Source: a virus
Reading direction: 5' to 3' (one strand)
DNA length: 20,052 nt
Virus record (IMG/VR): IMGVR_UViG_3300008117_000647
Coordinates: 1-20,052 of that record
The first letter of the stretch is position 1. The number at the start of each line of letters is the position of its first letter. This document shows positions 4,824 to 19,913 of this stretch, in pieces. A program made the translations under genes and the position numbers. The notes under the pieces are model-generated. The model saw nothing but the letters and a program-made list of their open reading frames with translations. It was not told the origin of the DNA and ran no database searches.

Positions 4824-4965
4824 ATTTTATAAAGTTGGTTATATTCTAGACGAAGAACAAAAATGGGCTTGTTATTTTGACTTTAATTGTGCTCAAGAAG
4901 CTATGATGAAGATGATTCGACTCGGTATAAATGTGACTGGAATGGAAACACAAATGATGGTGTGA
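4795..4965 (+). CDS. Small hypothetical protein ending the first gene cluster
   Basis: 56 residues starting MKRNRSQITEFYKVGYILDE, overlapping the 3' end of the disrupted gene by 29 bases. The middle (QKWACYFDFNCAQEAMMKMI) resembles proteins in which a strand is followed by a helix. Its stop overlaps the first hairpin arm of the intergenic cassette that ends this 5-kb run of genes. The role is unknown. Confidence 0.68.
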   Translation: MKRNRSQITEFYKVGYILDEEQKWACYFDFNCAQEAMMKMIRLGINVTGMETQMMV

Positions 4966-5032
4966 CAGTCTGTTGGCTGTCCACTAACCACGCCGAAGGG
5001 GCTCAGATCTTGGTATCTTAGCCATGTTGAGA
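4962..5032 (+). promoter_or_regulatory. Intergenic hairpin-promoter cassette, copy 1
   Basis: GTGAC at 4962, alternative stems GACAG (4964-4968)/CTGTC (4977-4981) or TTGGC (4972-4976)/GCCGA (4992-4996), CGCCGA at 4991-4996, 17 bp, then the core TATCTTAGCCATGTTGAGA at 5014-5032. TATCTT would serve as the -10 box. Leader to the gene at 5087 is about 60 bases. It separates the small-gene cluster from the next operon. Function as terminator plus promoter is inferred from position and conservation across the copies in this window. Confidence 0.7.
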
Positions 5033-5086
5033 CACGGATGTGGTCTTGACGCAACACAAACCCCTTTCAAGTAACTTCAAGACAAC

Positions 5087-5470
5087 ATGGCGACTCGTTC
5101 TCGCATTGGTGTTCAACTCAAGAATGGCTCTGTCCTTTCTGTGTATTGTCACTGGGATGGCTATCCGGAGTGGAATGGTAAGAAACTGAAAGAATACTTC
5201 AACACTCGGCAGAAAGCTGCGGAATTGGTTGATGGTGGAGACATCAGTGCTCTGTGGACTGATAAAGATTGGGATGGTAAAGAACAAGAGTTCGGTACTC
5301 TTTACTACGAAGGTCGTGGTGATGTAGACACTGAACCCAATTTGAGTGAATCTTTCCAAGACTTTATCAAGTCCGTGAATGATTCTTGGGCGGATTATGC
5401 TTACCTCTTTGCCGATGGTGAGTGGAAGTGTTATACTCCTAAAGGTAATGAAGAAAAAATCCCTGCCTGA
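5087..5470 (+). CDS. Conserved phage hypothetical protein (MATRSRIG family)
   Basis: 127 residues beginning MATRSRIGVQLKNGSVLSVYCHWDGYPEWNG (shown in pieces: MATRSRIG, then YCHWDGYPEWNGKKL). I recognise this N-terminus as that of a small protein common in cyanophages and other large phages and in some bacterial genomes; no biochemical role is established. The His, Trp, Asp and Gly of CHWDGYP are its signature. It is the first gene behind cassette copy 1. The ATG at 5087 is the family start even though no good Shine-Dalgarno precedes it. Confidence 0.9.
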   Translation: MATRSRIGVQLKNGSVLSVYCHWDGYPEWNGKKLKEYFNTRQKAAELVDGGDISALWTDKDWDGKEQEFGTLYYEGRGDVDTEPNLSESFQDFIKSVNDSWADYAYLFADGEWKCYTPKGNEEKIPA

Positions 5471-5471
5471 T

Positions 5472-5609
5472 ATGGAAAACCTCATTCAAGTGAAGTATTA
5501 CTTCAAGGAACATCCCAACACTACTCTCTCGGTGTTCCTTAAGACTAAAGAACAAGTTGAGGCTTTCAAGGCTAAACATCCCGACTATGTTTATGTGGAG
5601 GCTAAATGA
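5472..5609 (+). CDS. Small hypothetical protein
   Basis: 45 residues, MENLIQVKYYFKEH then TTLSVFLKTKEQVEAFKAKHPDY. A longer open frame starts upstream inside the previous gene, but the ATG one base after that gene's TGA is the sensible start. The predicted pattern is strand-strand-helix-strand. TGA overlaps the next ATG. The role is unknown. Confidence 0.75.
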   Translation: MENLIQVKYYFKEHPNTTLSVFLKTKEQVEAFKAKHPDYVYVEAK

Positions 5610-5746
5610 TTTACGTTGTTGAACTTTATGTTGGCGGCACTGTCTTCAAAGAAGAAGTGATTGCTACTAATCCTAAAGATGCCCGCGAAACTGCTCTTGC
5701 TCGTAATCCCAAAGCAAAAGTTGTTGGTGTTAACGTTAAATTCTGA
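5606..5746 (+). CDS. Small beta-alpha-beta hypothetical protein (paralog of the gene at 17437)
   Basis: 46 residues starting MIYVVELYVGGTVFKEEVIATNPKDA. The gene at 17437 begins MIYKVLIEFTDNNFEEKIIASNASAG, with the same length and layout, and each is followed by a gene encoding a membrane segment. I read them as paralogs carried in two modules. Four-base overlap with the preceding gene. Similar 45-55 residue proteins occur in cyanophages without assigned function. Confidence 0.78.
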   Translation: MIYVVELYVGGTVFKEEVIATNPKDARETALARNPKAKVVGVNVKF

Positions 5747-5754
5747 AAATTATT

Positions 5755-6162
5755 ATGACTAAACAAAACGGATTTATTGACCCTGCTGTTGCTGCTATTG
5801 CTGTCGGTGTGGTTGTGATTGGTGGTCTCATCTTCATTGGTGGCCCACAATATAATGTGTGGCAACAATCTCTTGCTGGTAAGGCGGAACTGCAGAAAGC
5901 AGAATACACACGTCAGGTTGCTGTTCTTGAAGCACAAGCAAAGAAAGATAGTGCTCAACAACTTGCTGATGCTGAAATCATTCGTGCTACTGGTGTTGCT
6001 AAAGCAAACCAAATCATCGGTGATAGTCTGAAAGATAACCGTGAGTATCTTCAGTACCTGTATATCACTGGTATTGAAGATGGTGCCAAGAATGGTAACG
6101 TGACCATCTATGTTCCCACCGAAGGTGGTATGCCAGTTCCTACTCTTCAAATGAATAAGTGA
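5755..6162 (+). CDS. Membrane protein with prohibitin/SPFH-like C-terminal segment
   Basis: 135 residues. Residues 11-30 form one hydrophobic membrane helix (AVAAIAVGVVVIGGLIFIGG). Residues 41-75 are Ala/Gln/Glu/Lys-rich coiled coil. Residues 73-103 (AEIIRATGVAKANQIIGDSL, then YLQYLYI) resemble the tail that follows the SPFH (prohibitin/stomatin/flotillin) domain, but the SPFH domain itself is absent. It probably sits in the host inner membrane with the coiled coil exposed and oligomerised. Prohibitin-like proteins are known from cyanophages; here only the tail remains. It overlaps the secreted-protein gene that follows, so the two may act together in the envelope. Confidence 0.82.
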   Translation: MTKQNGFIDPAVAAIAVGVVVIGGLIFIGGPQYNVWQQSLAGKAELQKAEYTRQVAVLEAQAKKDSAQQLADAEIIRATGVAKANQIIGDSLKDNREYLQYLYITGIEDGAKNGNVTIYVPTEGGMPVPTLQMNK

Positions 6163-6548
6163 TGAAACATCTGTTGATTCTTGTGTCTCTGTTGGTAACT
6201 TCTCCTGCATTTGCACAAACAAAAGAAGTCACTAAACAGAAAGTATATCGTCCTTTTACATACGAAACTGCATGTGCATTGGAAACTCCTCAAGAGTTTC
6301 AAGTAGATACATGTAAAGTTGTGGAAACTAGGGAGTCTACTGGTGCTCTTCGCACTCGTAATATCTTCTCTAATCGTTTCCGTCTTACCATCAAATCTCG
6401 TTTTGATAAAGAAAAGGGATTTGTAACTTGGGATTCTCACAATAAGTTTGAGTACAAGTTTGAATATAAAGTTGGTGGTGTAGATGGCCTTGGTGCCTGG
6501 TCTTATGTAATGCCAGGATTCTTACTTGAGAATGTCTCATGGGACTGA
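6162..6548 (+). CDS. Secreted hypothetical protein with signal peptide
   Basis: 128 residues. The first 18 (MKHLLILVSLLVTSPAFA) form a textbook Sec signal peptide with probable cleavage after AFA. The mature part has two Cys (residues 33 and 46) that could form a disulfide in the periplasm, then beta-rich sequence with SNRFRLTIKS and a repetitive FEYKFEYKV. I start at ATG 6162, which shares its A with the upstream TGA; a GTG three bases before is possible. The pairing with a membrane protein suggests a job at the host envelope. The family is unknown to me. Confidence 0.82.
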   Translation: MKHLLILVSLLVTSPAFAQTKEVTKQKVYRPFTYETACALETPQEFQVDTCKVVETRESTGALRTRNIFSNRFRLTIKSRFDKEKGFVTWDSHNKFEYKFEYKVGGVDGLGAWSYVMPGFLLENVSWD

Positions 6549-6566
6549 TAAGGATCTTTGATCAAT
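6548..6566 (+). repeat. 19-bp repeat ATAAGGATCTYTGATCAAT, copy 1
   Basis: ATAAGGATCTTTGATCAAT just after the stop of the secreted-protein gene. It matches 8815-8833 at 18 of 19 positions. In both places the repeat starts 25-26 bp before a -35 box and follows a stop codon. It contains the palindrome TTGATCAA. A regulator-binding site or a conserved part of a terminator are possible readings. Confidence 0.65.
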
Positions 6567-6572
6567 CAGCCC

Positions 6573-6601
6573 TTGACTTTCTTCCGTTTTTTTCTTATTG
6601 T
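6573..6601 (+). promoter_or_regulatory. Sigma70-type promoter for the gene at 6625
   Basis: TTGACT at 6573-6578, a 17-bp T-rich spacer, and TATTGT at 6596-6601. The predicted start of transcription is near 6608, leaving a leader of about 17 bases before the ATG at 6625. It lies in a clear intergenic gap. Confidence 0.7.
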
Positions 6602-6624
6602 ACTTTTGTTCAACTGATTCACAC

Positions 6625-6771
6625 ATGAACGACGATTTCAATTTTGATTCCTTTGATGAAGGTGATCTCTATGAATCCTTGATGGAATCTAATCCAGAAG
6701 ATTGGCTTCCTGATGCTGGTATCCGAGAAGAGTTTGATTCTGAAACTCTTGCCCTTCTACGGAACTTTTAG
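6625..6771 (+). CDS. Small, very acidic hypothetical protein
   Basis: 48 residues, MNDDFNFDSFDEGDLYESLM at the start; about one third of the residues are Asp or Glu and there is hardly any Lys or Arg. Such tiny acidic phage proteins are sometimes DNA mimics or inhibitors of host proteins, but nothing here proves that. It has its own promoter, and the -35 box for the next gene lies within its last codons. The start follows the short leader; no strong Shine-Dalgarno is visible. Confidence 0.7.
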   Translation: MNDDFNFDSFDEGDLYESLMESNPEDWLPDAGIREEFDSETLALLRNF

Positions 6772-6777
6772 TATAAT
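6749..6777 (+). promoter_or_regulatory. Sigma70-type promoter for the gene at 6803
   Basis: TTGCCC at 6749-6754, a 17-bp spacer, and a perfect TATAAT at 6772-6777. The -35 lies in the end of the preceding gene. Predicted start near 6784, with AGGTGAG (6791-6797) as ribosome binding site before ATG 6803. The same TTGCCC -35 occurs at 8841. Confidence 0.75.
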
Positions 6778-6802
6778 AAAATGGGTAAGTAGGTGAGTGT
6801 TA

Positions 6803-7309
6803 ATGAAGGTTGTTGAAAGACACCGATACGAAAACGGAGAAATCTTTGAGACTAGATCTCTGAGGTTTCTCCCTTTTTATTACTCGGAAGAGATTGCTGA
6901 ATCTCTGATGAAGATCATTCGTAATCAACTTACACCTGACTTGCTGACTAAAAAGTATCGCAAGGAGAATGAAACAAACCCAATGTACGGGCATTGTTAT
7001 CATTCAACTCAAGCCCTATTTTATCTCATGGAACCTCACGATTTGATTCCAATGAGTGGAATAGATTACAGAGGTGATACACACTGGTGGTTGTATGATG
7101 ACCGAGGAGTTATCTATGACACAACCGCAGATCAGTATTACTCTGTGGGACAAGTTCCCCCACATGCTGTTGGAAAGAAAACAGCTTGGTATGGTTGGAA
7201 ACAACGACCACACCAAAGATCTCTCACTTTAATCATGAGAGTTCTTGATGCTTGTAACATTGAGTATTGTTACGAAACCATCAAACCTCAGACGGGGGGC
7301 TTGACATAG
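6803..7309 (+). CDS. Putative Cys-His-Asp hydrolase-like phage protein
   Basis: 168 residues from ATG 6803, chosen because AGGTGAG stands 6 bases upstream; a GTG at 6797 would add two residues. The core has YGHCYHSTQALFYLM (Cys65), DTHWWLYDD (His94) and GVIYDTTADQYY (Asp106). This Cys, His, Asp order and the helix after the Cys look like a papain/transglutaminase-like or NlpC-type fold, so an amidase or peptidase activity is possible. Proteins with GHC and HWW segments of this length occur in phages as unnamed families. The assignment rests on motifs only. It has its own promoter upstream, and the next promoter's -35 is in its last codons. Confidence 0.75.
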   Translation: MKVVERHRYENGEIFETRSLRFLPFYYSEEIAESLMKIIRNQLTPDLLTKKYRKENETNPMYGHCYHSTQALFYLMEPHDLIPMSGIDYRGDTHWWLYDDRGVIYDTTADQYYSVGQVPPHAVGKKTAWYGWKQRPHQRSLTLIMRVLDACNIEYCYETIKPQTGGLT

Positions 7310-7329
7310 TTCTTTGTCTGATCTATACT
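7301..7329 (+). promoter_or_regulatory. Strong sigma70-type promoter for the DUF262-HNH gene
   Basis: TTGACA at 7301-7306 (perfect -35), a 17-bp spacer, TATACT at 7324-7329. It overlaps the last three codons of the previous gene. Predicted start near 7336, giving a leader of about 60 bases before ATG 7396. This is the best-matching host-type promoter in the window. Confidence 0.82.
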
Positions 7330-7395
7330 CAAAACATCAAAGACACGGACACAATCCCAACTCTTAATTGAGACGGTCAAAACTCCAAGTCCTAG

Positions 7396-8799
7396 ATGCA
7401 AACCTTACAAACAAAAACCATGAAAACTAACACCAAAACGTACACTCTGACTGTATCTCAACTGGCTTCTCTACAAAAGGACACCAAGATTTATCTTGAT
7501 GAAGCCTTCCAGTCCAATACACGTTGGAATACTGCAATGAATCAAGCATACATTAAGTCTGTGCTTGAAGGTAAAGCAATTACCCCCATTACTTTAGGTA
7601 AAATCTCTGATCTTTTGAGTTCTATTGAACTTCATTATGGTCCTACTCATTCTGACTATCAATTTTTTAGGGATCTTCTAGATCAAGATTTCATCTATAT
7701 CACGATTGATGGAAATAATCGTGATAACTGCATCTGCAAGTTCCTGAACAATGAGTTTCCCCTCTCTGAAGGGAAATACTATATTGAACACAATAACATT
7801 GTGTACTTTGAAGCGACTAAGAACAACAAGTATTTCAAAGATCTAGATGCAGAAGTTCGCAACTACATTGAGAACATTTCTCTGAACACTCTTGTAGTTT
7901 TGCAATCTGATCGTAAGGGTCTTGCTGAACTGTTCAGTAACATTAATGAGGGTCTTCCCCTTAATAATCAAGAGAAACGCAACGCTACTCCTTGTCGTTT
8001 CGGTGCTCTTGTTAGGAATCTTGTTCAAAGTCACTTGAATGGATTTTCTATGTTGTATAGTTCTAAGAACATCAATCGTCGTTATCCCGATGAATTGGTT
8101 GTGACAATTTCCACAATCGTTGCTCATGGGATAAAGAATCTGGATAAGAATACTCTAGATGCTGCTTATGGTGATTCTACGGTTGAGGTTATTTCTTTCA
8201 ACAAAACCGCAACTATTGTTGAACAACTTTCTAAGATTGTTGTCAACTATGGTGCTGCTGGATTTGATGTTGGTGGTAAGAAAAACTCTAACCTGATTGA
8301 CTTTGCAATGTTGTTGAACTATCTCAACAATAACTCGATTGTCATCGAAGATTACGAAGCTTTCTACAACTGGTTCACTGAAAGTCAGGGAGAACGAATT
8401 GAAGATCCTACCATTCTCTACTATGGTAAAAAGGGTAATAATCCTCGTAGTTATGCTGGTCTTCTCCGTGGATCTTCTTCCAATTTCCTTCAAATCCGAC
8501 TCAGTAAGTTGGTTGATTCCATCTCTTCTACACCAGACAACGTTCTGACCTTCCGTGACAAAGATCGCAAGTATGATCCTAAGATTCGATTCTCTCTTTG
8601 GAAATCTCAGGGTGGGCGATGTGCATTGACTGGTGAACCTATTGATGCACGTCACATCTACGATGGATCTGTGACTCATATCGACCATAAAGATCCTTGG
8701 TCGAAAGGTGGACAAACTACAGTTGAAAATGCACAACTGGTATTTGCAAATGCAAATCTCCGTAAAGGTGCTCAACTCGTAGAAGTTCCCTCTCTTTGA
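7396..8799 (+). CDS. DUF262 domain-HNH endonuclease fusion protein
   Basis: 467 residues. The N-terminal two thirds look like a DUF262 (ParB/sulfiredoxin-like) domain: IDGNNR at 104-109 corresponds to the family's DGxQR motif, followed by LFSNINEGLPLNNQEKRNA (179-197). The last 60 residues are an HNH nuclease: CALTG (409-413), HIDHKDPW (428-435), VENAQLV (443-449) and Asn454. DUF262 with HNH is the layout of GmrSD-type type IV restriction enzymes, where the first domain uses NTP and the second cuts modified DNA. In a phage it could exclude rival phages or degrade host DNA. A second ATG (7420) is an alternative start. It has its own strong promoter. Confidence 0.88.
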   Translation: MQTLQTKTMKTNTKTYTLTVSQLASLQKDTKIYLDEAFQSNTRWNTAMNQAYIKSVLEGKAITPITLGKISDLLSSIELHYGPTHSDYQFFRDLLDQDFIYITIDGNNRDNCICKFLNNEFPLSEGKYYIEHNNIVYFEATKNNKYFKDLDAEVRNYIENISLNTLVVLQSDRKGLAELFSNINEGLPLNNQEKRNATPCRFGALVRNLVQSHLNGFSMLYSSKNINRRYPDELVVTISTIVAHGIKNLDKNTLDAAYGDSTVEVISFNKTATIVEQLSKIVVNYGAAGFDVGGKKNSNLIDFAMLLNYLNNNSIVIEDYEAFYNWFTESQGERIEDPTILYYGKKGNNPRSYAGLLRGSSSNFLQIRLSKLVDSISSTPDNVLTFRDKDRKYDPKIRFSLWKSQGGRCALTGEPIDARHIYDGSVTHIDHKDPWSKGGQTTVENAQLVFANANLRKGAQLVEVPSL

Positions 8800-8814
8800 G
8801 AACTTATCTAATCC

Positions 8815-8833: not shown

Positions 8834-8835
8834 GG

Positions 8836-8882
8836 CCCTCTTGCCCCGCAACGGGTAAGAGGGTATTCTAGCTATGTTGAAA
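8836..8882 (+). promoter_or_regulatory. Chimeric hairpin-promoter cassette before the helicase
   Basis: Stem CCCTCTT (8836-8842)/AAGAGGG (8857-8863) with an inner stem CCCG (8845-8848)/CGGG (8852-8855). The left arm contains TTGCCC (8841-8846), and exactly 17 bp later comes TATTCT (8864-8869) within TATTCTAGCTATGTTGAAA, a diverged form of the cassette core. So a hairpin, a host-like -35 and the core are fused. The hairpin probably ends transcription of the DUF262-HNH gene while the promoter drives the helicase. Confidence 0.7.
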
Positions 8883-8891
8883 CGCAATTCA

Positions 8892-9032
8892 ATGAATCTC
8901 CGACCACACCAAGAACGTGCAGTTGAGGTAATGCAACTGCATAAAAAGGGTCAAATCATTGTTCCCACTGGTGGTGGTAAAACAATGAAGATGATCAAAG
9001 ACGCAATGATTCAATTCCAGGAACAGAAATGA
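8892..9032 (+). CDS. SF2 helicase, N-terminal piece with Walker A (split gene, part 1)
   Basis: 46 residues from ATG 8892 (MNLRPHQERAVE), the usual beginning of UvsW/SSL2-like SF2 helicases with the LRPHQ motif; an in-frame ATG at 8874 lies in the promoter core and probably precedes the transcript. IIVPTGGGKT is motif I (Walker A). The frame then stops at TGA 9030-9032, and the rest of the helicase follows in the -1 frame from ATG 9029, joined by an ATGA overlap. Alone this piece could bind at most a nucleotide phosphate. The split could be genuine, with two chains folding together, or a frameshift or sequencing error. Confidence 0.8.
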   Translation: MNLRPHQERAVEVMQLHKKGQIIVPTGGGKTMKMIKDAMIQFQEQK

Positions 9033-10138
9033 TCGAAATGCAATCACAAACTGAAAAAACGATTGTTGTTGTTGCTCCTCGTATTCTTCTCGCAGAACAA
9101 CTTTGTTCCGAGTTTCTGGAGTTTATCACCAACGCAAGTGTGATGCACGTTCACAGTGGTGAAACTCATCACTTTTCGACTACCAAACCCCAAGAGATTT
9201 CTAACTGGTGGGTGAATACTCGTGGTCACAAACTAATCTTCACCACTTACAACTCTCTGGAGAGGTTGCAACAATCTCGCATCAAGGTTGACACCATTTA
9301 CTTTGACGAAGCTCACAACTCCGTCAAACGCAACTTCTTCCCTGCAACTGAATACTTCAGTCAGGAAGCTGACCGTTGTTACTTCTTCACTGCGACTCCC
9401 AAACATTCTCTCGCAGTCGGTAAGCCTGGGATGAATGATGTAGAAGTTTATGGCCAAGTCATTTGTAATGTTCCTGCACCTGAACTTGTCGAAGGTGGTT
9501 ACATCCTGCCTCCGAAAGTTATCGCAAAACAACTTCCGATGGTAAAGTCTGGTAAGATTCCTGCAGATCGTGACTGTGAGAATCTGATTGAGACTCTGGA
9601 TGAATGTGGTAAGGGTAAAGTGTTGATCTGTGCGAAAGCTACCAAACAGATCTCTGCACTGATGTCTGAGACTGACTTCATTCAACAACTGCAAGATCGC
9701 GGATTCTCTTACCTCTACATCACCGCAAAGACTGGTGCAATTATTGATGGTAAGAAGGTGAATCGTGAGGTGTTCTTTGATACTCTCTCTGCATGGGGTA
9801 AGGATGACTCTAAGAAGTTCGTTGTTCTCCACCACTCCATCCTTTCTGAGGGTATCAATGTGTCAGGTCTGGAAGGTGTCATCTTTATGCGTTCGATGGA
9901 CTACATTGGTATCTCCCAAACCATCGGCCGTGTGATTCGGATGCACCATGATGATGCAGCTCGCATCCATAGTGGTGAACTTGTCCCTGGTGATGTTGAC
10001 AACTATACCAAATCTTTCGGTCTAGTTGTTGTTCCTGTCTTCAACAAAGTTGGGATCTCTACTCACCAGAAGATCCAAGCTGTGGTGGATACGATCTTCC
10101 AAAAAGGAATGCCCGCTATTTCTGTCGTAAAACGATGA
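9029..10138 (+). CDS. SF2 DEAD/DEAH-box helicase, main piece lacking Walker A (split gene, part 2)
   Basis: 369 residues. Motif Ia VVVAPRILLAEQ (13-24), motif II FDEAH (92-96), motif III TATP (121-124), motif V SEGINVSG (273-280) and motif VI QTIGRVIR (297-304) are all intact. Only motif I is missing, and it is encoded in the overlapping gene before. Relatives in T4-like phages (UvsW) branch-migrate and unwind recombination intermediates; this one belongs to the same broad COG1061-like group, but I cannot place it more closely. Its Arg codons are mostly CGT/CGC, unlike the oxygenase genes downstream. It overlaps the next gene by 4 bases. Confidence 0.88.
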   Translation: MIEMQSQTEKTIVVVAPRILLAEQLCSEFLEFITNASVMHVHSGETHHFSTTKPQEISNWWVNTRGHKLIFTTYNSLERLQQSRIKVDTIYFDEAHNSVKRNFFPATEYFSQEADRCYFFTATPKHSLAVGKPGMNDVEVYGQVICNVPAPELVEGGYILPPKVIAKQLPMVKSGKIPADRDCENLIETLDECGKGKVLICAKATKQISALMSETDFIQQLQDRGFSYLYITAKTGAIIDGKKVNREVFFDTLSAWGKDDSKKFVVLHHSILSEGINVSGLEGVIFMRSMDYIGISQTIGRVIRMHHDDAARIHSGELVPGDVDNYTKSFGLVVVPVFNKVGISTHQKIQAVVDTIFQKGMPAISVVKR

Positions 10139-11129: not shown

Positions 11130-11668
11130 CCGCAGACTATAATGATTACATGTTTTATGCACCAATTTATCACTACGCAGTGAGAGATTGGAAGAATAAA
11201 AAAACTTCTTTGATGGAATTGTATAACAGGATTGATAGAAACTTAGAAAGAAAAGATGATGACAGTGTGATTACAAATTATCATAAGGATTCACTTTCTA
11301 TGATAGAAAGTATTTCCGAAATTTTTACTGATGAGATCAATTTGTTTTGTGGTAAAGTTCAATCTCGATTCAAATTAGCTTGTGCATGGTTTGAATTGAC
11401 TGATAAACATGCTTATCACTCAATGCACAATCATGGATGTACGGGATACAGTTCGGTGTGTTACATCAAATACAATAGTGATGAACATAAACCCACACAT
11501 TTTATGTCTCCTTTTCCAAACTTTTTAACTGGTCTTCAACTAACTTATACTCCAGAAGTTGATGAAGGCTCAATTATATTTTTTCCATCATATATCAGTC
11601 ACTTTACTGAACCTAATTTGTCTGATGAGAATAGACTAATCGTATCTTTTAATCTACAATCAGTTTGA
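11126..11668 (+). CDS. Putative 2OG-Fe(II) oxygenase
   Basis: 180 residues from ATG 11126 (ATGA overlap; an in-frame TTG at 11120 is less likely). SMHNHGCTGYSSVCYIKY (99-116) supplies His101 and His103, one of which should bind iron. EGSIIFFPSYISHF (147-160) gives the distal His159, and ENRLIVSFN (168-176) gives Arg170 for 2-oxoglutarate. This is the layout of the 2OG-FeII_Oxy_5 type, frequent in cyanophages, where such genes are among the most common auxiliary genes and their targets are mostly unknown. Arg codons are mainly AGA. It forms a pair with the cupin gene before it. Confidence 0.85.
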   Translation: MTADYNDYMFYAPIYHYAVRDWKNKKTSLMELYNRIDRNLERKDDDSVITNYHKDSLSMIESISEIFTDEINLFCGKVQSRFKLACAWFELTDKHAYHSMHNHGCTGYSSVCYIKYNSDEHKPTHFMSPFPNFLTGLQLTYTPEVDEGSIIFFPSYISHFTEPNLSDENRLIVSFNLQSV

Positions 11669-11669: not shown

Positions 11670-12059
11670 ATGATGTACCCCAACACAAGTATTCTTGATC
11701 CCGACAATGGCCCTACTGGATTTACCACTCCAGACTTCCAATTTGCTGCTATTCCATTTGGAAAAGAATACATGATCATTGCAGATGGCCAACAACTTGA
11801 AGTAGTCAAAACAAGACAACTTGCAGAGATTCGGCTTGAACAATTAAAAAACTCGCATCGGACTCTGAAGAAGGGTACTAAGACCCCTGCACCACCAAAA
11901 TCACAAAAAAAGGCGAAAACGTCTAGTGGCCGCAAGGGGTCTCAGGGACCAAAGCCAAAGGCCACCAAGGGTTCTACCAAGTCTCCTAAATCTAAGAGTG
12001 TGACAGTCAAGAAACCGTACACTCTTCATCCAAATCCATTGATGGATGCACTACTCTAG
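11670..12059 (+). CDS. Hypothetical protein with Lys-rich tail
   Basis: 129 residues, starting at ATGATG just after the previous stop. Residues 1-65 are an ordinary folded part (FGKEYMIIADGQQLEVV). Residues 66-115 are low-complexity Lys/Ser/Pro/Gly (KKGTKTPAPPKSQKKAKTSS and more), similar in feel to histone-like tails. The last residues read TLHPNPLMDALL. The basic tail suggests nucleic-acid binding. The 3' end overlaps a diverged piece of the cassette core at 12052. Confidence 0.8.
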   Translation: MMYPNTSILDPDNGPTGFTTPDFQFAAIPFGKEYMIIADGQQLEVVKTRQLAEIRLEQLKNSHRTLKKGTKTPAPPKSQKKAKTSSGRKGSQGPKPKATKGSTKSPKSKSVTVKKPYTLHPNPLMDALL

Positions 12060-12074: not shown

Positions 12075-12326
12075 ATGTCTATCGAAGAAAAACTCTTATC
12101 TTTGGGATTTGCATACAATGCAAAGGGGAATGTTCTATCAAAACGTGTCTTACGAAAAAGTCAAATCCCCATAGGTTGTTTCTTCAAATCCTTAGAAACT
12201 GGTGTTGAGTTTTACTCTCAAAATCCAGAAGATGATACTAAGTGGGATCATCTTATTATGACAAGAGATTTTGAAGAAGTTCTACTTGACGAAACTGTTA
12301 CTGCACAATCAATTCTTGAATTATGA
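12075..12326 (+). CDS. Small hypothetical protein (paralog family D)
   Basis: 83 residues. LLSLGFAYNAKGNV, FYSQNPEDDTKWDHLIMTRDFEEV and a Glu-rich end align with LIASGYVFDDENY, LYQENVDDDTDTLWNYVKMTEDFDVI in the gene at 18304, so the two are likely paralogs in separate modules. The preceding 15 bases contain a diverged cassette-core-like stretch. It has an ATGA overlap with the next gene. The role is unknown. Confidence 0.78.
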   Translation: MSIEEKLLSLGFAYNAKGNVLSKRVLRKSQIPIGCFFKSLETGVEFYSQNPEDDTKWDHLIMTRDFEEVLLDETVTAQSILEL

Positions 12327-14241: not shown

Positions 14242-14264
14242 TTGTTGTTAGTTTTTGAGTTTCT

Positions 14265-14426: not shown

Positions 14427-14429
14427 TAT

Positions 14430-14490
14430 GTGACGCTTTGAGAACTGTCACAGGGGCTCTTTACAGAGCCCCTTTTTGCATGTATTGTGG
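14430..14490 (+). promoter_or_regulatory. Cassette variant with GTGAC block, terminator and embedded promoter
   Basis: GTGAC at 14430 and CTGTC 15 bases later, the same spacing as in the other cassettes. TTTACA (14460-14465) and TATTGT (14483-14488) are 17 bp apart, and TATTGT lies 53 bases after GTGAC against 52 in most copies. The -35 lies in the terminator loop, as in T4 PeSL elements. The predicted start is at about 14495, the ATG of the next gene, so its mRNA may be leaderless. Confidence 0.6.
14453..14477 (+). terminator. Rho-independent terminator
   Basis: Perfect 8-bp stem GGGGCTCT (14453-14460)/AGAGCCCC (14465-14472), loop TTAC, followed by TTTTT. This is the clearest intrinsic terminator of the window, ending the three-gene module from 13823. 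It overlaps the likely promoter of the following gene. Confidence 0.9.
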
Positions 14491-14494
14491 CTAC

Positions 14495-15439
14495 ATGAAG
14501 AACACTCACCTCGAACATCCCGAAGATTCTGTACTTCTCGGTAAGAAGGCTGTGCAGGATACTATCAACTATCTGCGTAACTGCAAAGGTGATTGTAGTG
14601 TGAAGTATGATGGTGCTCCTGCCATTGTGTTTGGGACGCATCCTGTCACTAATCAATTCTTTGTAGGGACGAAAAGTGTATTCAATAAGAAGAAAGTTAA
14701 GGTTAATTATACTCACGCTGACATCGAAAAGAATCACGGTAATAATTCCAAAGTTGCAGGAATACTTCACACTTGCCTTGAAGTATTGCCTAAGTTGGAG
14801 GGTGTTTACCAAGGTGATTTTATTGGGTTTGGTGGTACTAACCGATTCACCCCTAATACTATCACTTATACCTTCAATACCGATAGCGATTCTTTTCGTA
14901 ATTGTTCTGTGGTCTTTGCTGCTCATACACGGTATTCTGGAGATACGTCATGCGTTGAAGGTTCGGAGAACCCGCTCAACAAACTGAGTGCATCTTTTGA
15001 TGTTCCTGAGTATCTCAAACACAACTTTATGTCAACTTACTTTGTGAATGGTGATGCACAATTTACCTCCCGTCGTCGTAGGATTGATTACCTTCTTGGC
15101 CTTGCAAGTTTGGTTAGCAATTTTGTTAGATACCCTGAAGAAAAAGAAGTAGCAAATCTCAAAGTTGCGATCAATAAGTGCATCCGAGAGAATGTTCCTG
15201 TTGATTGTATTGACGGCAATCTTCTCCTGTTGTTCAACCTGTTGACCAAAGCCAAGGATTTGATTGTAGAAGGAATCACCGTCACTGGTGATCAAGTTGA
15301 TGCAGTGATTGATCTCGGTGTGGATTATGTTGCGTCTGGCCATGAAGGTTATGTTCACTCTAATGATTATGGGACTTTCAAGTTAGTCAACCGTCGTATG
15401 TTCTCTTACTTTAACTTCACCAAACCAAAAGGTTGGTAG
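14495..15439 (+). CDS. Putative covalent nucleotidyltransferase (RNA-ligase-like) phage protein
   Basis: 314 residues from ATG 14495 (MKNTHLEHPEDSVL), the usual beginning of this cyanophage family; ATG 14480 and a TTG at 14438 are excluded because they lie in or before the terminator. VKYDGAPAIVFG contains KxDG (Lys37-Gly40), the motif I lysine of DNA/RNA ligases and capping enzymes. VYQGDFIGFG (104-113) resembles motif III, HEGYVHS (283-289) resembles motif IV (EGxV), and TFKLVNR (294-300) resembles motif V. I infer an adenylyltransferase or RNA ligase relative, perhaps for nucleic-acid repair. The substrate is unknown. It is a single-gene module between two cassettes. Confidence 0.85.
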   Translation: MKNTHLEHPEDSVLLGKKAVQDTINYLRNCKGDCSVKYDGAPAIVFGTHPVTNQFFVGTKSVFNKKKVKVNYTHADIEKNHGNNSKVAGILHTCLEVLPKLEGVYQGDFIGFGGTNRFTPNTITYTFNTDSDSFRNCSVVFAAHTRYSGDTSCVEGSENPLNKLSASFDVPEYLKHNFMSTYFVNGDAQFTSRRRRIDYLLGLASLVSNFVRYPEEKEVANLKVAINKCIRENVPVDCIDGNLLLLFNLLTKAKDLIVEGITVTGDQVDAVIDLGVDYVASGHEGYVHSNDYGTFKLVNRRMFSYFNFTKPKGW

Positions 15440-15509
15440 GGACAGTTGCCTGGCTGTCCACCAGAGGCGCCAGGATCGTTCCTGGCATCGTATCTTAGCT
15501 ATGTTGAGA
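15439..15509 (+). promoter_or_regulatory. Intergenic hairpin-promoter cassette, copy 2
   Basis: Stem GACAG (15441-15445)/CTGTC (15454-15458) or CCTGGC (15449-15454)/GCCAGG (15469-15474); a further perfect hairpin GCCAGGA (15469-15475)/TCCTGGC (15480-15486) is unique to this copy. CGCCAG at 15468-15473, 17 bp, core TATCTTAGCTATGTTGAGA at 15491-15509. GAGAGG at the core end gives a ribosome binding site for ATG 15519. Confidence 0.72.
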
Positions 15510-15518
15510 GGTTCACCC

Positions 15519-15692
15519 ATGACTCGTCTTGAAATCCAACAGGCACTGTATGAGACTCGCAACAACTATCTCAAAGCAAAAGCTTCGGTAGAGTTCTATC
15601 GTAAGGAGATCATGTTCCTCAAGGAATGTGAAGCAAACCTGGACAAACCTGAAGGTTGGTTGTATCAAGAAATGTTCGGAGCTGAAGTATGA
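15519..15692 (+). CDS. Small coiled-coil hypothetical protein
   Basis: 57 residues from ATG-ACT-CGT; GAGAGG 7-8 bases upstream decides this start over an ATG inside the cassette core (15501). Residues 4-42 look like a continuous charged helix (EIQQALYETRNNYLKAKASV). No function recognised. ATGA overlap with the next gene. Confidence 0.78.
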   Translation: MTRLEIQQALYETRNNYLKAKASVEFYRKEIMFLKECEANLDKPEGWLYQEMFGAEV

Positions 15693-15844: not shown

Positions 15845-15846
15845 AG

Positions 15847-15996: not shown

Positions 15997-16178
15997 CCTA
16001 CACAATTTCAAAAGAAATTAGAATCCACAATGATCAAGATGGTTGGGAGTATGTATTTACAACCGATGATTATGGAACTGTAAATGTGCAAGATAGTAAT
16101 GGTCCTACATTTCAAACCATTCACATTCCTAGGGATTGTATTCAACACTTCATTGATGCTTTGGAAGAACTGAAATGA
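15993..16178 (+). CDS. Small beta-rich hypothetical protein
   Basis: 61 residues. Alternating strands (KEIRIHNDQDGWEYVFTTDD, GTVNVQ) precede a C-terminal helix (CIQHFIDALEELK). Both ends overlap neighbours by 4 bases. The role is unknown. Confidence 0.78.
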   Translation: MTYTISKEIRIHNDQDGWEYVFTTDDYGTVNVQDSNGPTFQTIHIPRDCIQHFIDALEELK

Positions 16179-16549
16179 ACTATCAATGTCCTCGTTGTCA
16201 AGAACGTGTAAAAGATTGGGAAGGTGATGATCCCAAATGTGGTTTTGATGAGAATGGCAACTTTCTAGAAAATAACTGGAATTGTGCTACTCTCAATGCT
16301 CTGCGTGAGAGAGCAGAAGAGAACACAGTGTGGAGTAACAATCAACAAAATGTTTCTGTCATTCAAACATATGATGTAGGACATGCTATCCTCTCTTGGT
16401 ATAAGTGGAGAGGTCAAACTGATGACTTCCGTGATGGTTACTTTGATCGTGGAACTCTAACGTATGCCCAACAGATTCTAGGTGATAGAGAACCTGACAA
16501 TGGTTTTGATGGTTGGGAAGATTCTATTTTTGATGAGGATGAAGAATGA
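16175..16549 (+). CDS. Conserved phage protein with N-terminal zinc-ribbon-like Cys cluster
   Basis: 124 residues. CPRC (Cys5, Cys8), KCGF (Cys22) and NWNCATLNALRERA (Cys37) give four Cys that could hold one zinc. The segment CPRC...DWEGDDP...NWNCATLN is one I know from unnamed small proteins in cyanophages and other phages. The rest is aromatic and acidic (DDFRDGYFDRGTLTYAQQIL) and ends in EDSIFDEDEE. Nucleic-acid or protein binding is plausible for a zinc ribbon; there is no experimental role known to me. Confidence 0.82.
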   Translation: MNYQCPRCQERVKDWEGDDPKCGFDENGNFLENNWNCATLNALRERAEENTVWSNNQQNVSVIQTYDVGHAILSWYKWRGQTDDFRDGYFDRGTLTYAQQILGDREPDNGFDGWEDSIFDEDEE

Positions 16550-16809
16550 CTAACTCAAATCTCTCTAAGATCCGTCCCAAACTGAGGACAACTGGGCGTG
16601 TTTCTGGTAACTTTGGACGAAACAAAGTTGTTAGTGGATCTCCCATAAATGATCTAGGTATTACTAAAGTTGAAGTCGTCAAGTGTGCGACACAAGATGA
16701 ATATCTTGCACGACTTTGGTACGCATTTGATAACACTGACGATGATAAACTTCGTCTTTTCCTACATCAAGAAATCCGCAAAATCCACATTCAACGAGGT
16801 ACATGGTGA
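16546..16809 (+). CDS. Small basic hypothetical protein
   Basis: 87 residues. The N-terminus is basic and Gly/Ser-rich (SKIRPKLRTTGRVSGNFGRN) and probably flexible; the C-terminal half is helical (EYLARLWYAFDNTDDDKLRL). The basic tail could contact nucleic acid. It has an ATGA overlap at its start, and its stop is shared with the next start (TGATG). The role is unknown. Confidence 0.78.
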   Translation: MTNSNLSKIRPKLRTTGRVSGNFGRNKVVSGSPINDLGITKVEVVKCATQDEYLARLWYAFDNTDDDKLRLFLHQEIRKIHIQRGTW

Positions 16810-17024
16810 TGAGAAAAAAGTACAACTTCAATAACATGTCTCTTGCAGAGCTTCTGGGAATCTTTGTAGGTATCCTTGCAATCGTGTTTCTCTTTCTCAG
16901 TTTTGAAGCTTGGTTGCTTGGACTGATTCTATCTTGGTTTGCAGTTCAACTCACCTTCTGGCAATGTTTCGCTATTGTCTTTCTCATTCAGGCCATTTTG
17001 GGCTCTGCAAAGAGCAATAACTGA
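16809..17024 (+). CDS. Small two-helix membrane protein
   Basis: 71 residues from ATG 16809, with AGGT about 9 bases upstream and TGATG overlap; an ATG at 16803 is possible but sits too close to that site. After a basic N-terminus (RKKYNFNN) come two hydrophobic helices, about residues 14-34 and 38-62. A short inner-membrane hairpin protein; size and shape would suit a holin or an envelope modifier, but nothing specific supports either. It is the last gene before cassette copy 3. Confidence 0.78.
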   Translation: MRKKYNFNNMSLAELLGIFVGILAIVFLFLSFEAWLLGLILSWFAVQLTFWQCFAIVFLIQAILGSAKSNN

Positions 17025-17030
17025 CCTAGT

Positions 17031-17100
17031 GTGACGGTTGGCGGACTGGACACCAAACCCGCCAACCGCAGCCAGATCCTGTATCTTGGCCATGTTGAGA
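17031..17100 (+). promoter_or_regulatory. Intergenic hairpin-promoter cassette, copy 3
   Basis: The longest stem of the set: CGGTTGGCGG (17035-17044)/CCGCCAACCG (17059-17068), 10 bp perfect. CGCCAA (17060-17065), 16 bp, then the core TATCTTGGCCATGTTGAGA (17082-17100) with one change (TTGGCC for TTAGCC). The hairpin should act as terminator for the membrane protein gene, though no T-run follows. Confidence 0.72.
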
Positions 17101-17101
17101 G

Positions 17102-17272
17102 ATGAATCAAATGCGAATCGACATCCGTTGTCCTGCTGCTCCCTGGGAGAATCACACCACTGATCTAGACAGAGCATACGACATCGCATACAATTTGAGT
17201 GAAGAATACCAGTGTGATGTTGACCTCTACTACAACACCACTGGCACACTTTACACCACTGTTTCTGCCTGA
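17102..17272 (+). CDS. Small acidic hypothetical protein
   Basis: 56 residues (MNQMRIDIRCPAAPWENHTT); a start at the internal ATG 17111 is equally possible. Helix with DRAYDIAYNLSEEY, then strand-rich DVDLYYNTTGTLYTTVSA. It probably folds as strand-helix-strand, the common layout of tiny phage proteins. The role is unknown. Confidence 0.72.
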   Translation: MNQMRIDIRCPAAPWENHTTDLDRAYDIAYNLSEEYQCDVDLYYNTTGTLYTTVSA

Positions 17273-17275
17273 ACA

Positions 17276-17440
17276 ATGTCAGTATCTATTCTGCGTCCTG
17301 AACAACAATTCCTGTTCACACATGAACAGATGGGCTTAATTTATGATCTCTTGAGTGCATATTTGGGAGAGACAAATCATCCTGATGAAGTTGCTCTCAC
17401 TCAGGAAACTCTAGATGTTATCACCATTCAATCCGTATGA
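17276..17440 (+). CDS. Small hypothetical protein
   Basis: 54 residues, MSVSILRPEQQFLFTHEQMG, then helical YDLLSAYLGETNHPDEVALT. It starts 3 bases after the previous stop and ends in an ATGA overlap. No function recognised. Confidence 0.72.
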   Translation: MSVSILRPEQQFLFTHEQMGLIYDLLSAYLGETNHPDEVALTQETLDVITIQSV

Positions 17441-17601
17441 TCTATAAAGTATTGATTGAGTTCACAGACAACAACTTTGAAGAAAAAATTATAGCATCTA
17501 ATGCCTCAGCGGGAACTTTATGCGACAAGATTTTATGTCAAGATCGCATAGGTAAAATCCGATCTGTAGAAGCAAATCCACTTAAATCTTTAGGAGAATA
17601 A
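17437..17601 (+). CDS. Small beta-alpha-beta hypothetical protein (paralog of the gene at 5606)
   Basis: 54 residues beginning MIYKVLIEFTDNNFEEKIIA, matching the layout of the gene at 5606 (MIYVVELYVGGTVFKEEVIA). TAGGAGAATAATT between its end and the next ATG contains a good ribosome binding site (GGAG) for that gene. As at 5606, a gene for a single membrane helix follows. The role is unknown. Confidence 0.75.
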   Translation: MIYKVLIEFTDNNFEEKIIASNASAGTLCDKILCQDRIGKIRSVEANPLKSLGE

Positions 17602-17603
17602 TT

Positions 17604-17741
17604 ATGTTCACATCCTTGACTATATTTGTTGCATGGTTTGCCTTTGGTTACTGTATTGCTGACATTATCACGAATTGGCGTAGTCAAAAACAAATTGATG
17701 AGCTCGTCAAAGAGATTGTAAAAGAAGGCGATAAACAATGA
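17604..17741 (+). CDS. Tiny single-span membrane protein
   Basis: 45 residues: a hydrophobic helix at residues 3-22 (TSLTIFVAWFAFGYCIADII) followed by a charged helix NWRSQKQIDELVKEIVKEGD. It probably sits in the inner membrane with a cytoplasmic helical tail. TAGGAG upstream supports the start. ATGA overlap with the RlpA-like gene suggests they are made together and may work at the cell envelope. Confidence 0.75.
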   Translation: MFTSLTIFVAWFAFGYCIADIITNWRSQKQIDELVKEIVKEGDKQ

Positions 17742-18043
17742 TCCTCGCTGGATTGATGTGTGGAATCGCAACATTTTATGGTGTTGGTGATGGATTCCAC
17801 GGCCAAACAACTGCAAGCGGAAAATCATTCAATGCCTATGGTCTGACTGCTGCTCATCCATACTTGAGAATGGGCAGCAAATTACGCATCACAAATCAGG
17901 ATAACATGAAACAAGTTATCGTGACTGTGAATGATCGTGGACCGTACAGCCATGCGGATATTGATCTTTCGTATGGGGCTTTTAGGAGAATTGCTTCACC
18001 TTCACAAGGTAACGCAGTTGTATGTTTTAGGGTGATCGGTTAG
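17738..18043 (+). CDS. RlpA-like double-psi beta-barrel protein
   Basis: 101 residues, just the RlpA/DPBB domain: GIATFYG (9-15), TASGKSFN (25-32), LTAAHPYLRMGS (36-47), ITNQDN (51-56), VTVNDRGPYSHADIDLS (62-78). RlpA of Pseudomonas cuts peptidoglycan glycan strands; an acidic residue at the TASGE position, a His and the Asp of NDRGP are important there. Here that Glu is Lys29, while His40 and Asp66 remain, so it may bind or loosen rather than cut. There is no signal peptide and no SPOR domain, so access to the wall would need lysis-time release or a partner such as the membrane protein before it. A role in host wall remodelling is the best guess. Confidence 0.85.
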   Translation: MILAGLMCGIATFYGVGDGFHGQTTASGKSFNAYGLTAAHPYLRMGSKLRITNQDNMKQVIVTVNDRGPYSHADIDLSYGAFRRIASPSQGNAVVCFRVIG

Positions 18044-18303
18044 TTACAACAATTCATTTTTGATGAATCTGATTGCAGGGGATGACCTAATCCCCTACTG
18101 GGGTAAAATTGCAGAAAAATCATTGTTTGCTCAAACTCAGATCCCTTGCCACGACAGGGATCTCAAAGAGAGATCGGTGCGACGCTTTGAGGGTTGGACA
18201 GATCAGAGGCAAACCGAGCCAGAGTGTGACAATCCCCAAACCGCACACCAATTCAACCAAAGGTGATGTATCTTAGCTATGTTGAGACAAACACACAAAC
18301 CTC
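18044..18303 (+). other. Structured intergenic region without a convincing gene
   Basis: 260 bases. GGGGAT (18078-18083)/ATCCCC (18090-18095) forms one hairpin, and CCCC (18092-18095)/GGGG (18100-18103) an alternative one sharing the same bases. AGATCCCT (18139-18146)/AGGGATCT (18156-18163) is a perfect 8-bp stem. The region ends in cassette copy 4. An open frame of 68 codons from TTG lacks a ribosome binding site and is not credible. The region may hold a terminator or a small RNA. Confidence 0.5.
18226..18287 (+). promoter_or_regulatory. Intergenic cassette, copy 4 (shortened, no hairpin)
   Basis: GTGAC at 18226, but only 43 bases before TATCTT rather than 52; no clear stem. CACCAA at 18246-18251, 17 bp, then the intact core TATCTTAGCTATGTTGAGA at 18269-18287. 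The core is conserved while the hairpin is lost, which separates the two functions. ATG 18304 follows 16 bases later. Confidence 0.65.
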
Positions 18304-18525
18304 ATGACTTTCGTTGACGCACTGATTGCATCGGGTTATGTATTCGATGATGAGAATTATGATGGTTGTTATGTAAAACAAGATTCCGAAGGTTTCATTC
18401 ATCTTTACCAGGAAAATGTGGATGATGATACTGACACTCTCTGGAATTATGTCAAAATGACTGAGGATTTTGATGTGATTCATGAGGTTACTTTTGATCC
18501 CAATGTTGATACTATTGTTGAGTGA
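18304..18525 (+). CDS. Small acidic hypothetical protein (paralog family D)
   Basis: 73 residues, MTFVDALIASGYVFDDENYD; the block LYQENVDDDTDTLWNYVKMT and the following EDFDVIHEV match the gene at 12075. It is very acidic and probably a small alpha/beta protein. The role is unknown. Confidence 0.78.
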   Translation: MTFVDALIASGYVFDDENYDGCYVKQDSEGFIHLYQENVDDDTDTLWNYVKMTEDFDVIHEVTFDPNVDTIVE

Positions 18526-18529
18526 ATCA

Positions 18530-18907
18530 ATGAACTTCACTCATAAAGTTAGAAGTTGGTCTGTAACTCTTCCAAGAGAGTTAGAAGAAGAGAAGAAATG
18601 GTGGAGGAGAAAACCAGGAAAACCCAGAAAGATGGGTGATCCGTTACCACCACCAAAGGGTAAATTACCCAAGAAAAATAGTGACAAACGCATGTTGCAA
18701 GGTTACTATTTGTTAGAGTTCGTTGCTGAAATGGCCTATAAGGGAATGAGTAAAGAGAAAGAAAGTAGGATCAAAAAACAAATGACTGCGGCTAAAAAGT
18801 CATCGAAGAAAGCATCACAAGAAGGTGATGATGAGGCTGCAGAGAGACACGATCAAAGGCACAGAGCCCTGCGAGATAGAGTCAAACGCAGCGATCTGCC
18901 TTTCTGA
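18530..18907 (+). CDS. Highly basic hypothetical protein
   Basis: 125 residues from ATG 18530; a longer upstream frame overlaps the previous gene and is not needed. Residues 18-55 are Lys/Pro/Arg-rich (KKWWRRKPGKPRKMG, then PPPKGKLPKKNSDKR), followed by a short hydrophobic helix (LQGYYLLEFVAEMA) and a charged C-terminal half with Lys/Ala/Ser runs and HDQRHRALRDRVKR. This composition suggests binding of nucleic acid or the ribosome, but no family is recognised. Confidence 0.75.
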   Translation: MNFTHKVRSWSVTLPRELEEEKKWWRRKPGKPRKMGDPLPPPKGKLPKKNSDKRMLQGYYLLEFVAEMAYKGMSKEKESRIKKQMTAAKKSSKKASQEGDDEAAERHDQRHRALRDRVKRSDLPF

Positions 18908-18916
18908 TGTAGCAAT

Positions 18917-18987
18917 GTGACAGTCTGCGGGCTGTCCACTGATCGTGCCGAAGGGGGCTGTGGCCCTGTATCTTAGCCATGTTGAGA
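18917..18987 (+). promoter_or_regulatory. Intergenic hairpin-promoter cassette, copy 5
   Basis: GTGACAG from 18917, stem GACAG (18919-18923)/CTGTC (18932-18936), TGCCGA at 18946-18951, 17 bp, core TATCTTAGCCATGTTGAGA at 18969-18987. GAGAGGA at the core end is the ribosome binding site for ATG 18998. Confidence 0.72.
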
Positions 18988-18997
18988 GGAATCACTG

Positions 18998-19237
18998 ATG
19001 ACTGACCGCAAGTTTCACAACATGAGCGTCGAAGATCGTGAGATGTTTGCTTACAATGCAGCTTACGAGCGTCGTCAACAACAACTCGCTGCAGTTGCTC
19101 CTGAGCTGCGTATCAAATACTGCTTCGAGTTTCTGAAAGGTTATGTTGCTGATGGTGATGATCTGATGTCAGCTCGTTGTTACGATGGCATCGCAAAGTA
19201 CAGCGACAAACTTGACTGGTCTGAGGCACACTACTGA
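18998..19237 (+). CDS. Small hypothetical protein
   Basis: 79 residues, ATG-ACT-GAC start with GAGAGGA 7 bases upstream. Helical, with RKFHNMSVEDREMFAYNAAY, RRQQQLAAVAPELRIKYCFE and a charged end (KYSDKLDWSEAHY). More GC and more CGT/CGC than the cluster at 1-4965. The role is unknown. Confidence 0.8.
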   Translation: MTDRKFHNMSVEDREMFAYNAAYERRQQQLAAVAPELRIKYCFEFLKGYVADGDDLMSARCYDGIAKYSDKLDWSEAHY

Positions 19238-19239
19238 TC

Positions 19240-19431
19240 ATGCACATTCCTTTTTTCACCAAGCTTAACATTGGTGTTGATAGTTTCAAGGATGCTCTTT
19301 ACTGGTGGAATGAGAATGAAATGCCCGCCTTCTGGGTTGAACTGAATAGTGGTTACTATCAGCTACATCCCCAACAATACGCTGAGGTTATGCTGGGGGA
19401 AGGTTATGCTGATGTTGTCTACACTAACTGA
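19240..19431 (+). CDS. Small hypothetical protein
   Basis: 63 residues, MHIPFFTKLNIGVDSFKDAL, Trp/Tyr-rich later (WWNENEMPAFWVELNSGYYQ). The segment VELNSGYYQLHPQQY recalls EELNNGWYHMYIYPY of the gene at 3951. It starts 2 bases after the previous stop. The role is unknown. Confidence 0.75.
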   Translation: MHIPFFTKLNIGVDSFKDALYWWNENEMPAFWVELNSGYYQLHPQQYAEVMLGEGYADVVYTN

Positions 19432-19437
19432 TTCGGA

Positions 19438-19614
19438 ATGACTTACAAAGAACTCCTGCAACAGCTTCAACAACTCACCGAAGATCAGCTCAACTCTGAT
19501 GTTGCTATCTATGATGAAGGCACCGATGAGTATTATCAACTCAAAGTTGAGTTGGTATTTACTACCGGAGAATGTGATGTTCTTGATCCTGACCATCCTG
19601 TAATTCGTTTCTGA
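19438..19614 (+). CDS. Conserved small hypothetical protein (TYKELLxxLxxL type)
   Basis: 58 residues, MTYKELLQQLQQLTEDQLNS, then VAIYDEGTDEYYQLKVELVF, ending DVLDPDHPVIRF. I recognise the layout of a helix with TYKELL...LT..QL, then strands, then DVLD..HP as a small protein found in many phages and bacteria without known function. TGA overlaps the next start (TGATG). Confidence 0.8.
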   Translation: MTYKELLQQLQQLTEDQLNSDVAIYDEGTDEYYQLKVELVFTTGECDVLDPDHPVIRF

Positions 19615-19838
19615 TGATGTACGCAACCCTAGCTGAGTTTTACCGTTATGTTTATGCCTTCTATGGTCGTGGTGGTGTGTATCCCATGGGCGCAACTTTA
19701 GATGAGATTGAATCAGCAACTAAGATTCTCATTCGTGAGCTCACCGCAACAGATAAAGACTTTGTGGGTGATAGCATTGATCGTGAGCTTGTGCGGGACA
19801 TCCTCATTTCAGAATACGGCTTAGAGTTTCCTGACTAA
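19614..19838 (+). CDS. Small hypothetical protein
   Basis: 74 residues, starting ATGATG at the overlap (19614 or 19617). LAEFYRYVYAFYGRGGVYPM, then a helical IESATKILIRELTA and a C-terminal RELVRDILISEYGLEF. The YGRGG..PMGA segment suggests a loop between two helices. The role is unknown. It is the last gene of its module. Confidence 0.78.
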   Translation: MMYATLAEFYRYVYAFYGRGGVYPMGATLDEIESATKILIRELTATDKDFVGDSIDRELVRDILISEYGLEFPD

Positions 19839-19842
19839 GTAT

Positions 19843-19913
19843 GTGCCAGTTGGCGGGCTGTCCACCAAATCCGCCAAAGGGGCTCAGGGCCCTGTATCTT
19901 AGCCATGTTGAGA
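19843..19913 (+). promoter_or_regulatory. Intergenic hairpin-promoter cassette, copy 6
   Basis: GTGCCAG start, stem TTGGCGG (19850-19856)/CCGCCAA (19871-19877), CGCCAA at 19872-19877, 17 bp, core TATCTTAGCCATGTTGAGA at 19895-19913. The right arm of the stem and the -35-like box share the same bases, as in copy 3. Confidence 0.72.

Follow-up and report, generated by a model that had tools for sequence, protein, structure and literature searches.

Predicted promoters of small-gene operons in T4-like cyanophages share a symmetric dyad and a constant dyad-to--10 spacing

Middle promoters of T4 keep a sigma70 -10 box and have a phage-specific site, the MotA box at -30, in place of a poor -35. For T4-like cyanophages, Doron and colleagues reportedly described in 2016 (ISME J), with Syn9 and P-TIM40, a novel regulatory element that controls early genes and is conserved in this group. 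T4-like middle promoters, and motA and/or asiA, are missing from T4-like cyanophages according to an excerpt of PMC5780444, and the way in which the first genes of lytic cyanophages are turned on is not yet established. Another described system is that of the T4-type promoter early stem-loop (PeSL) cassettes (Arbiol 2010; Comeau 2014). The subject of this report is a family of repeated elements in IMG/VR record IMGVR_UViG_3300008117_000647, positions 1 to 20,052; this 20,052-base virus fragment, referred to below as the window, resembles in its DNA the T4-like cyanophages S-SRM01, S-PM2, and S-CREM1. Judged from their sequence, these elements are probably promoters of small-gene operons and would be activator dependent, through a dimeric protein bound to an upstream dyad.

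The family was recognized by a 19-mer, TATCTTAGCYATGTTGAGA, which was found within three changes at seven window sites, all on the + strand: exact at 5014, 15491, 18269, 18969, and 19895, with one change at 17082, and with three changes at 8864. Dinucleotide shuffles (n = 100) gave a mean of 0.01 sites. The seven positions and their strand had been given correctly in an original prediction made from the letters of the window, and the GTGAC-type sequence that it placed 52 bases 5' of the core was indeed located at 4962, 15439 (GGGAC), 18917, and 19843 (GTGCC), with the 51-base offset that it noted for copy 3 (17031). It was silent on copy 4, whose dyad at 18226 lies only 43 bases 5' of the 19-mer, and it overlooked two further dyad copies (12000 and 14430), neither of which has the 19-mer. 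In IMG/VR, the exact 19-mer occurred in 58 stretches from 34 contigs, as counted from the names listed. No known RNA family reached its gathering threshold, and one copy searched against plasmids gave no match.

Alignments of the copies showed that the 19-mer forms the downstream portion of a longer unit with three conserved parts. The first alignment comprised 140 sites with at most two changes from the 19-mer, 79 of them distinct; the second drew on 176 profile hits, from which partial ones and six that lacked a -10 anchor had been removed, and comprised 94 distinct copies (80 after dereplication). The conserved parts are the upstream dyad GTGNCAGTY-N4-RRCTGNCCAC; the motif CGCC[AG], which in most dyad copies stands where a -35 would be and where a -35 resembling TTGACA at a spacer of 17 +/- 1 was not found; and GTATCTTAGCC. 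Some copies are identical in kind through TATCTTAGCCA and then carry CATGAAGAACAAC or similar in place of TGTTGAGA, so that the final third of the 19-mer can be separated from the rest. In 77 distinct sites with at most two changes, bases 1, 2, 3, and 6 of the opening hexamer were invariant and bases 4 and 5 were variable (TATCTT, TATTCT, TATTGT, and TATATT), the two variable positions being the ones tolerated by a -10 box; all 77 had a sigma70-type -10, TANNNT, at a fixed place. Since the anchor TA[TC]NNT was required for the 80-copy set, that set is not independent evidence for the constancy of the hexamer. Despite a variable spacer, the distance from the dyad centre to the downstream -10 was 40 or 41 bp in 70 of the 72 dereplicated copies that fit the dyad expression, with the 8 nonfitting copies of the 80 left out. 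A 7-bp hairpin was also seen inside the 19-mer itself and was rejected as its function: the TATTCT, TATTGT, and TATATT variants mismatch the hairpin and retain the -10 box, and the -10 reading is therefore preferred. The copies in the window are the following.

4962-4984, + strand: dyad of copy 1, GTGACAGTC-TGTT-GGCTGTCCAC, centred 41 bp before the -10
5014-5032, + strand: 19-mer of copy 1, with -10 TATCTT (5014-5019), discriminator, and predicted start region; next called gene 5087-5470
12000-12057, + strand: copy with dyad 12000-12022 and -10 TACTCT 12052-12057, spacing 41; the dyad lies within the 3' end of gene 11670-12059, and the next called gene is 12075-12326
14430-14494, + strand: copy with imperfect dyad 14430-14451 and -10 TATTGT 14483-14488, spacing 42; intrinsic terminator in the spacer (stem 14453-14460 / 14465-14472, T run 14473-14477); DUF6267 gene downstream with ATG at 14495, possibly leaderless
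15439-15509, + strand: copy 2, dyad 15439-15461 (GGGAC form), -10/19-mer 15491-15509; next called gene 15519-15692
17031-17100, + strand: copy 3, dyad 17031-17053, -10/19-mer 17082-17100, spacing 40; next called gene 17102-17272
18226-18287, + strand: copy 4, degenerate dyad 18226-18248, -10/19-mer 18269-18287; next called gene 18304-18525
18917-18987, + strand: copy 5, dyad 18917-18939, -10/19-mer 18969-18987; next called gene 18998-19237
19843-19913, + strand: copy 6, dyad 19843-19865, -10/19-mer 19895-19913

An ATG at 19926, after copy 6, begins a frame that continues past the end of the record, and copies related to that at 12000 overlap a gene end of this kind in other contigs as well. 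Copy 4 is a natural spacing mutant: at 18249-18268, three otherwise matching fetched sites keep 9 additional bases (spacing 41). A TATGTT at 18278 happens to sit 41 from its dyad.

The copies were also uniform in strand and gene context. Profile hits numbered 160 in 27 stretches (the window plus 26 stretches from 21 of the 34 contigs, several of them near-identical), and each stretch had its hits on one strand throughout; an alternative model gave one weak hit (E 0.018) opposite in strand to a copy, as the symmetric dyad permits. With our own gene caller, and with copies less than 200 bases from an end left out, 93 of 98 copies in 14 regions had their midpoint outside called genes, and four of the other five were of the 12000 type, overlapping the 3' end of the upstream gene. 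The claim that the copies are intergenic and lie on a single strand is borne out by these counts. In five long contigs, which include two near-identical pairs, the hits with E < 1e-6 were confined to a single region per contig, about 10-22 kb in length, and one contig of 248,835 bases had 10 copies with E < 1e-13 at 214,417-224,914. Furthermore, copies had kept their downstream neighbour in 412 of 474 comparisons of orthologs and their upstream neighbour in 296 of 402, and where both orthologs were present, 57 cases had the downstream link only, 19 the upstream link only, 179 both, and 15 neither, although the comparisons share related genomes and the counts are thus not independent. Stronger linkage to the downstream gene is the behaviour expected from a promoter of that gene. 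Together with the -10-like hexamer, the fixed dyad distance, and the gene strand, it argues for the promoter half of the original prediction.

The element was also found beyond the window virus. A sequence-only model of the unit, searched against phage genomes with strict filters, found copies in S-CAM9 and S-8S53, weaker ones in S-T4, and partial or weak ones in Syn9, ACG-2014d, P-SSM2, S-CREM1, and S-CRM01; at E 1 it found no copy in S-PM2, S-SRM01, S-SSM7, S-H38, or T4. The dyad pattern with at most three changes gave 69 matches in 13 records, some of which count one place on both strands and some of which are surely chance, versus 6 for a reversed control pattern; at least one match was present in each of 12 cyanophages, and T4 had none. 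S-CRM01 has several near-perfect symmetric dyads of the GTGACAGTC-N4-AACTGTCACA type, matching both strands, at 121434-143686. The exact dyad pattern was found in at least 120 stretches of viral contigs versus 15 in species genomes. A host regulon was considered and rejected, 15 stretches being the chance expectation (35 bits, 257 Gb, both strands, even base composition). In BLAST searches with two marine copies, Synechococcus phage or cyanophage names stood on 115 of 119 and 142 of 155 phage records, weak matches included. Phage specificity, as originally proposed, is supported by these dyad and BLAST counts. Three contigs from metagenome-assembled genomes (MAGs) labelled Burkholderiales or Microbacteriaceae (L227, L237, and L239) have the dyad and, at the distance expected from it, a -10-like box; they may be phage DNA misbinned in MAGs.

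In a sample chosen by the dyad only (112 distinct sites in 102 newly fetched viral loci; null 6.4% per side), a -10-like hexamer was present at 39-42 bp on one side of 71 sites and on the opposite side of 31, with 14 sites having it on both sides and 88 on at least one, and the -10 distance peaked sharply at 40-41. The window-type core was present at just 9 of these 112 sites; other cyanophages have different -10 boxes and leaders and keep the dyad and the spacing. In isolates, a -10 stood at 38-44 bp (null 11%) at 4 of 4 sites inspected in Syn9, out of 5 matches there, at 9 of 10 in S-SRM01, and at 2 of 2 inspected in S-PM2, out of 6 matches. The Syn9 sites lie at four gene ends, 43114, 44775, 47205, and 49079. 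Sites with dyad and -10 in isolates occur in either dyad orientation.

The position of start codons varied with the type of leader. Among freshwater copies without ATGTTGAGA, 14 of 20 had an ATG 6 bases after the -10 that opened at least 38 codons, and such an ATG was present at 7 of 68 sites among other viral loci. Leaderless starts are possible where the ATG is thus placed, at the expected transcription start. In the ATGTTGAGA class, the ATG lies inside the 19-mer, 4 bases after the -10, and in 44 of 70 copies it opens a frame of 38 codons or more.

The mechanism that would accord with this architecture is activation at a weak promoter. The -10 box (TATCTT in the window virus) would be read by host RNA polymerase with its housekeeping sigma factor and, the -35 (CGCC[AG]) being poor, the polymerase would be held by a predicted DNA-binding protein that sits as a dimer on the dyad, some 53 bp ahead of the predicted transcription start. 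The helicase promoter at 8864, which has no dyad, has TTGCC at -35, in keeping with this view. The constant 40-41 bp from dyad centre to -10 would put both on one face of the DNA, the remainder of the 19-mer would be the discriminator and the first transcribed bases, and in some relatives the spacer holds an intrinsic terminator for the preceding operon. The timing of these putative promoters is presumably early. A fixed symmetric dyad would equally suit a dimeric repressor, and the dyad might then be an operator that silences the operons until some factor is removed or made. This reading is rather unlikely, because the dyad, about 53 bp 5' of the predicted start, lies clear of the core promoter and the sequence at -35 is a poor one, two features that argue for help and not hindrance.

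Several points weigh against activator-dependent promoters. A repressor site could share the same spacing. Copy 4 departs from the fixed distance with a spacing of 32, which is accounted for by the deletion of 9 spacer bases in this record, and 24 of the 112 dyad-only sites lack a -10 at the expected distance on either side. In addition, the ATG of the ATGTTGAGA class would precede the transcript start, which is left unexplained, and the linkage counts carry the dependence among genomes mentioned above.

A further reading makes the dyad a hairpin in RNA, with a role in protecting or processing the upstream mRNA at its 3' end, and takes the adjacent -10 as incidental. It is favoured by the position of the copies, 68 of 98 of which overlap or begin at most 45 bases from the upstream stop codon, and by folding, in which window sites 15491, 17082, and 8864 had z < -2; the other four sites were no better than z -1.34. 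Pairs of the dyad hairpin were retained at about the frequency predicted for two sides that vary independently (62 versus 60.5 of 72 at the largest excess), and RNAalifold on 78 sequences predicted no pair. Since there is neither pair covariation nor a consensus fold, the dyad seems to be conserved as DNA and to act as DNA. The RNA hairpin, which would also leave the fixed distance from dyad to -10 unexplained, is very improbable.

The original prediction had described the units as terminator-promoter cassettes that also give homology for module exchange, much like the PeSL cassettes of T4, and the evidence on these two proposals was as follows. In the window family, none of 80 spacers had a hairpin with a T tract, and 2 of 78 upstream flanks had one (shuffles, 0.0 and 0.5), so the terminator half fails for the six 19-mer copies. 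Terminator-promoter fusion nevertheless exists within the dyad-promoter class, outside those six: 4 of 71 spacers at other viral loci had such a hairpin, versus 0.1 in shuffles; the 14430 copy, which is without the 19-mer, has a terminator between dyad and -10, directly before the DUF6267 gene; and nested terminators were seen by inspection in P-SSM2, S-CAM9, and S-PM2. As for module exchange, gene-order breaks were not enriched at the copies (266 of 471, versus 1,010 of 1,741 elsewhere; permutation P = 0.85), and breaks that are equally common at the copies count against exchange there, as does the finding that copies keep their downstream genes. Single cases do fit, such as contig 3300023180_000283, in which about 230 bases stand in place of the 2.7 kb that separate window positions 15527 and 18225, the end of one alignment block and the start of the next, and many copies are grouped in one variable small-gene region, as composite cassettes serving module swapping would be. 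On balance, such cassettes are an unlikely explanation of the family.

The site at 8864, which had been taken for a diverged copy of the family, belongs to a second promoter type, in front of a helicase gene.

8836-8882, + strand: helicase promoter, with -35 TTGCCC 8841-8846, a 17-base spacer containing a stem-loop, and -10 TATTCT 8864-8869; no dyad

Its membership in the 19-mer family is ruled out by the missing dyad and the TTGCC -35, with its 17-base spacer. In 12 of 12 distinct sequences of this type, TTGCC at -35 was invariant and no dyad was seen; TATTCTAGCT was common to the twelve, the spacer was 17 bases in those counted, and the spacer stem-loop was missing in one. The homologous Syn9 helicase (45% identity) has the dyad site at 49079 in front instead. 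The window helicase at 8874-10138 consists of two overlapping open reading frames (ORFs), 8874-9032, with a Walker A-like motif, and 9029-10138; that of Syn9 is a single 412-amino-acid (aa) ORF, and a near-identical contig repeats the window's sequence at the ORF break.

Other features of the window included the following: a 467-aa protein at 7396-8799 with an HNH nuclease domain at its C terminus; a small double-psi beta-barrel protein among the ORFans, at 17738-18043 (Pfam DPBB_1, lytic transglycolase, E 2e-19); an ARAGORN call of a 93-base tRNA-Gln at 5218-5310, within a conserved protein gene and probably a false positive; and a point at 4660/4661 where 133 bases present in all seven near-identical contigs spanning it are missing. 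An S-PM2 gene annotated from 17030 was considered as a homologue of window gene 5087-5470; no homology was found.

It is possible, though we would not lean toward it, that T4-like cyanophages share one dimeric activator, which is either delivered with the virion or of host origin and which initiates early transcription at promoters with a weak -35, the dyad working in either orientation and sometimes divergently, with terminators nested in the dyad-to--10 spacer and some leaderless mRNAs. A rule placing the dyad centre 40-41 bp before the -10 would allow such operons to be predicted directly from the sequences of isolates and metagenomes, and the dyad would serve as bait for fishing out the predicted binding protein.

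A literature search with the dyad letters ctgtccac and cyanophage returned nothing, a result that says nothing on Doron 2016, Arbiol 2010, or Comeau 2014; in the literature searched outside these three, neither the dyad with its 40-41 bp rule, the dyad symmetry, the freshwater array with a frozen 19-mer, nor a negative module-exchange test was met. Compared with the PeSL cassettes (Arbiol 2010; Comeau 2014), the present units are alike in being repeated promoter units at high density in a variable region, one window copy (14430) containing a terminator, and differ in that the 19-mer copies are without a terminator hairpin and gene-order breaks are not enriched. S-PM2 is described in an excerpt of PMC4503421 as lacking the high PeSL density of other T4-like phages, and the stem-loop listed there at 11369-11391 falls within the dyad promoter found here at 11347. 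In common with T4 middle promoters, the units have a phage-specific site in place of a poor -35 and retain the -10, whereas the dyad is centred near -53 and the MotA box lies at -30. The window unit is probably a freshwater variant of the element reportedly described by Doron and colleagues. The likeness lies in the dyad with -10 at four Syn9 gene ends (43-49 kb) and in many cyanophages, and in the presence of the dyad in 12 of 12 cyanophages and its absence from T4; what the freshwater set has in addition is a -10/leader 19-mer that hardly varies and arrays that number 10 copies or more.

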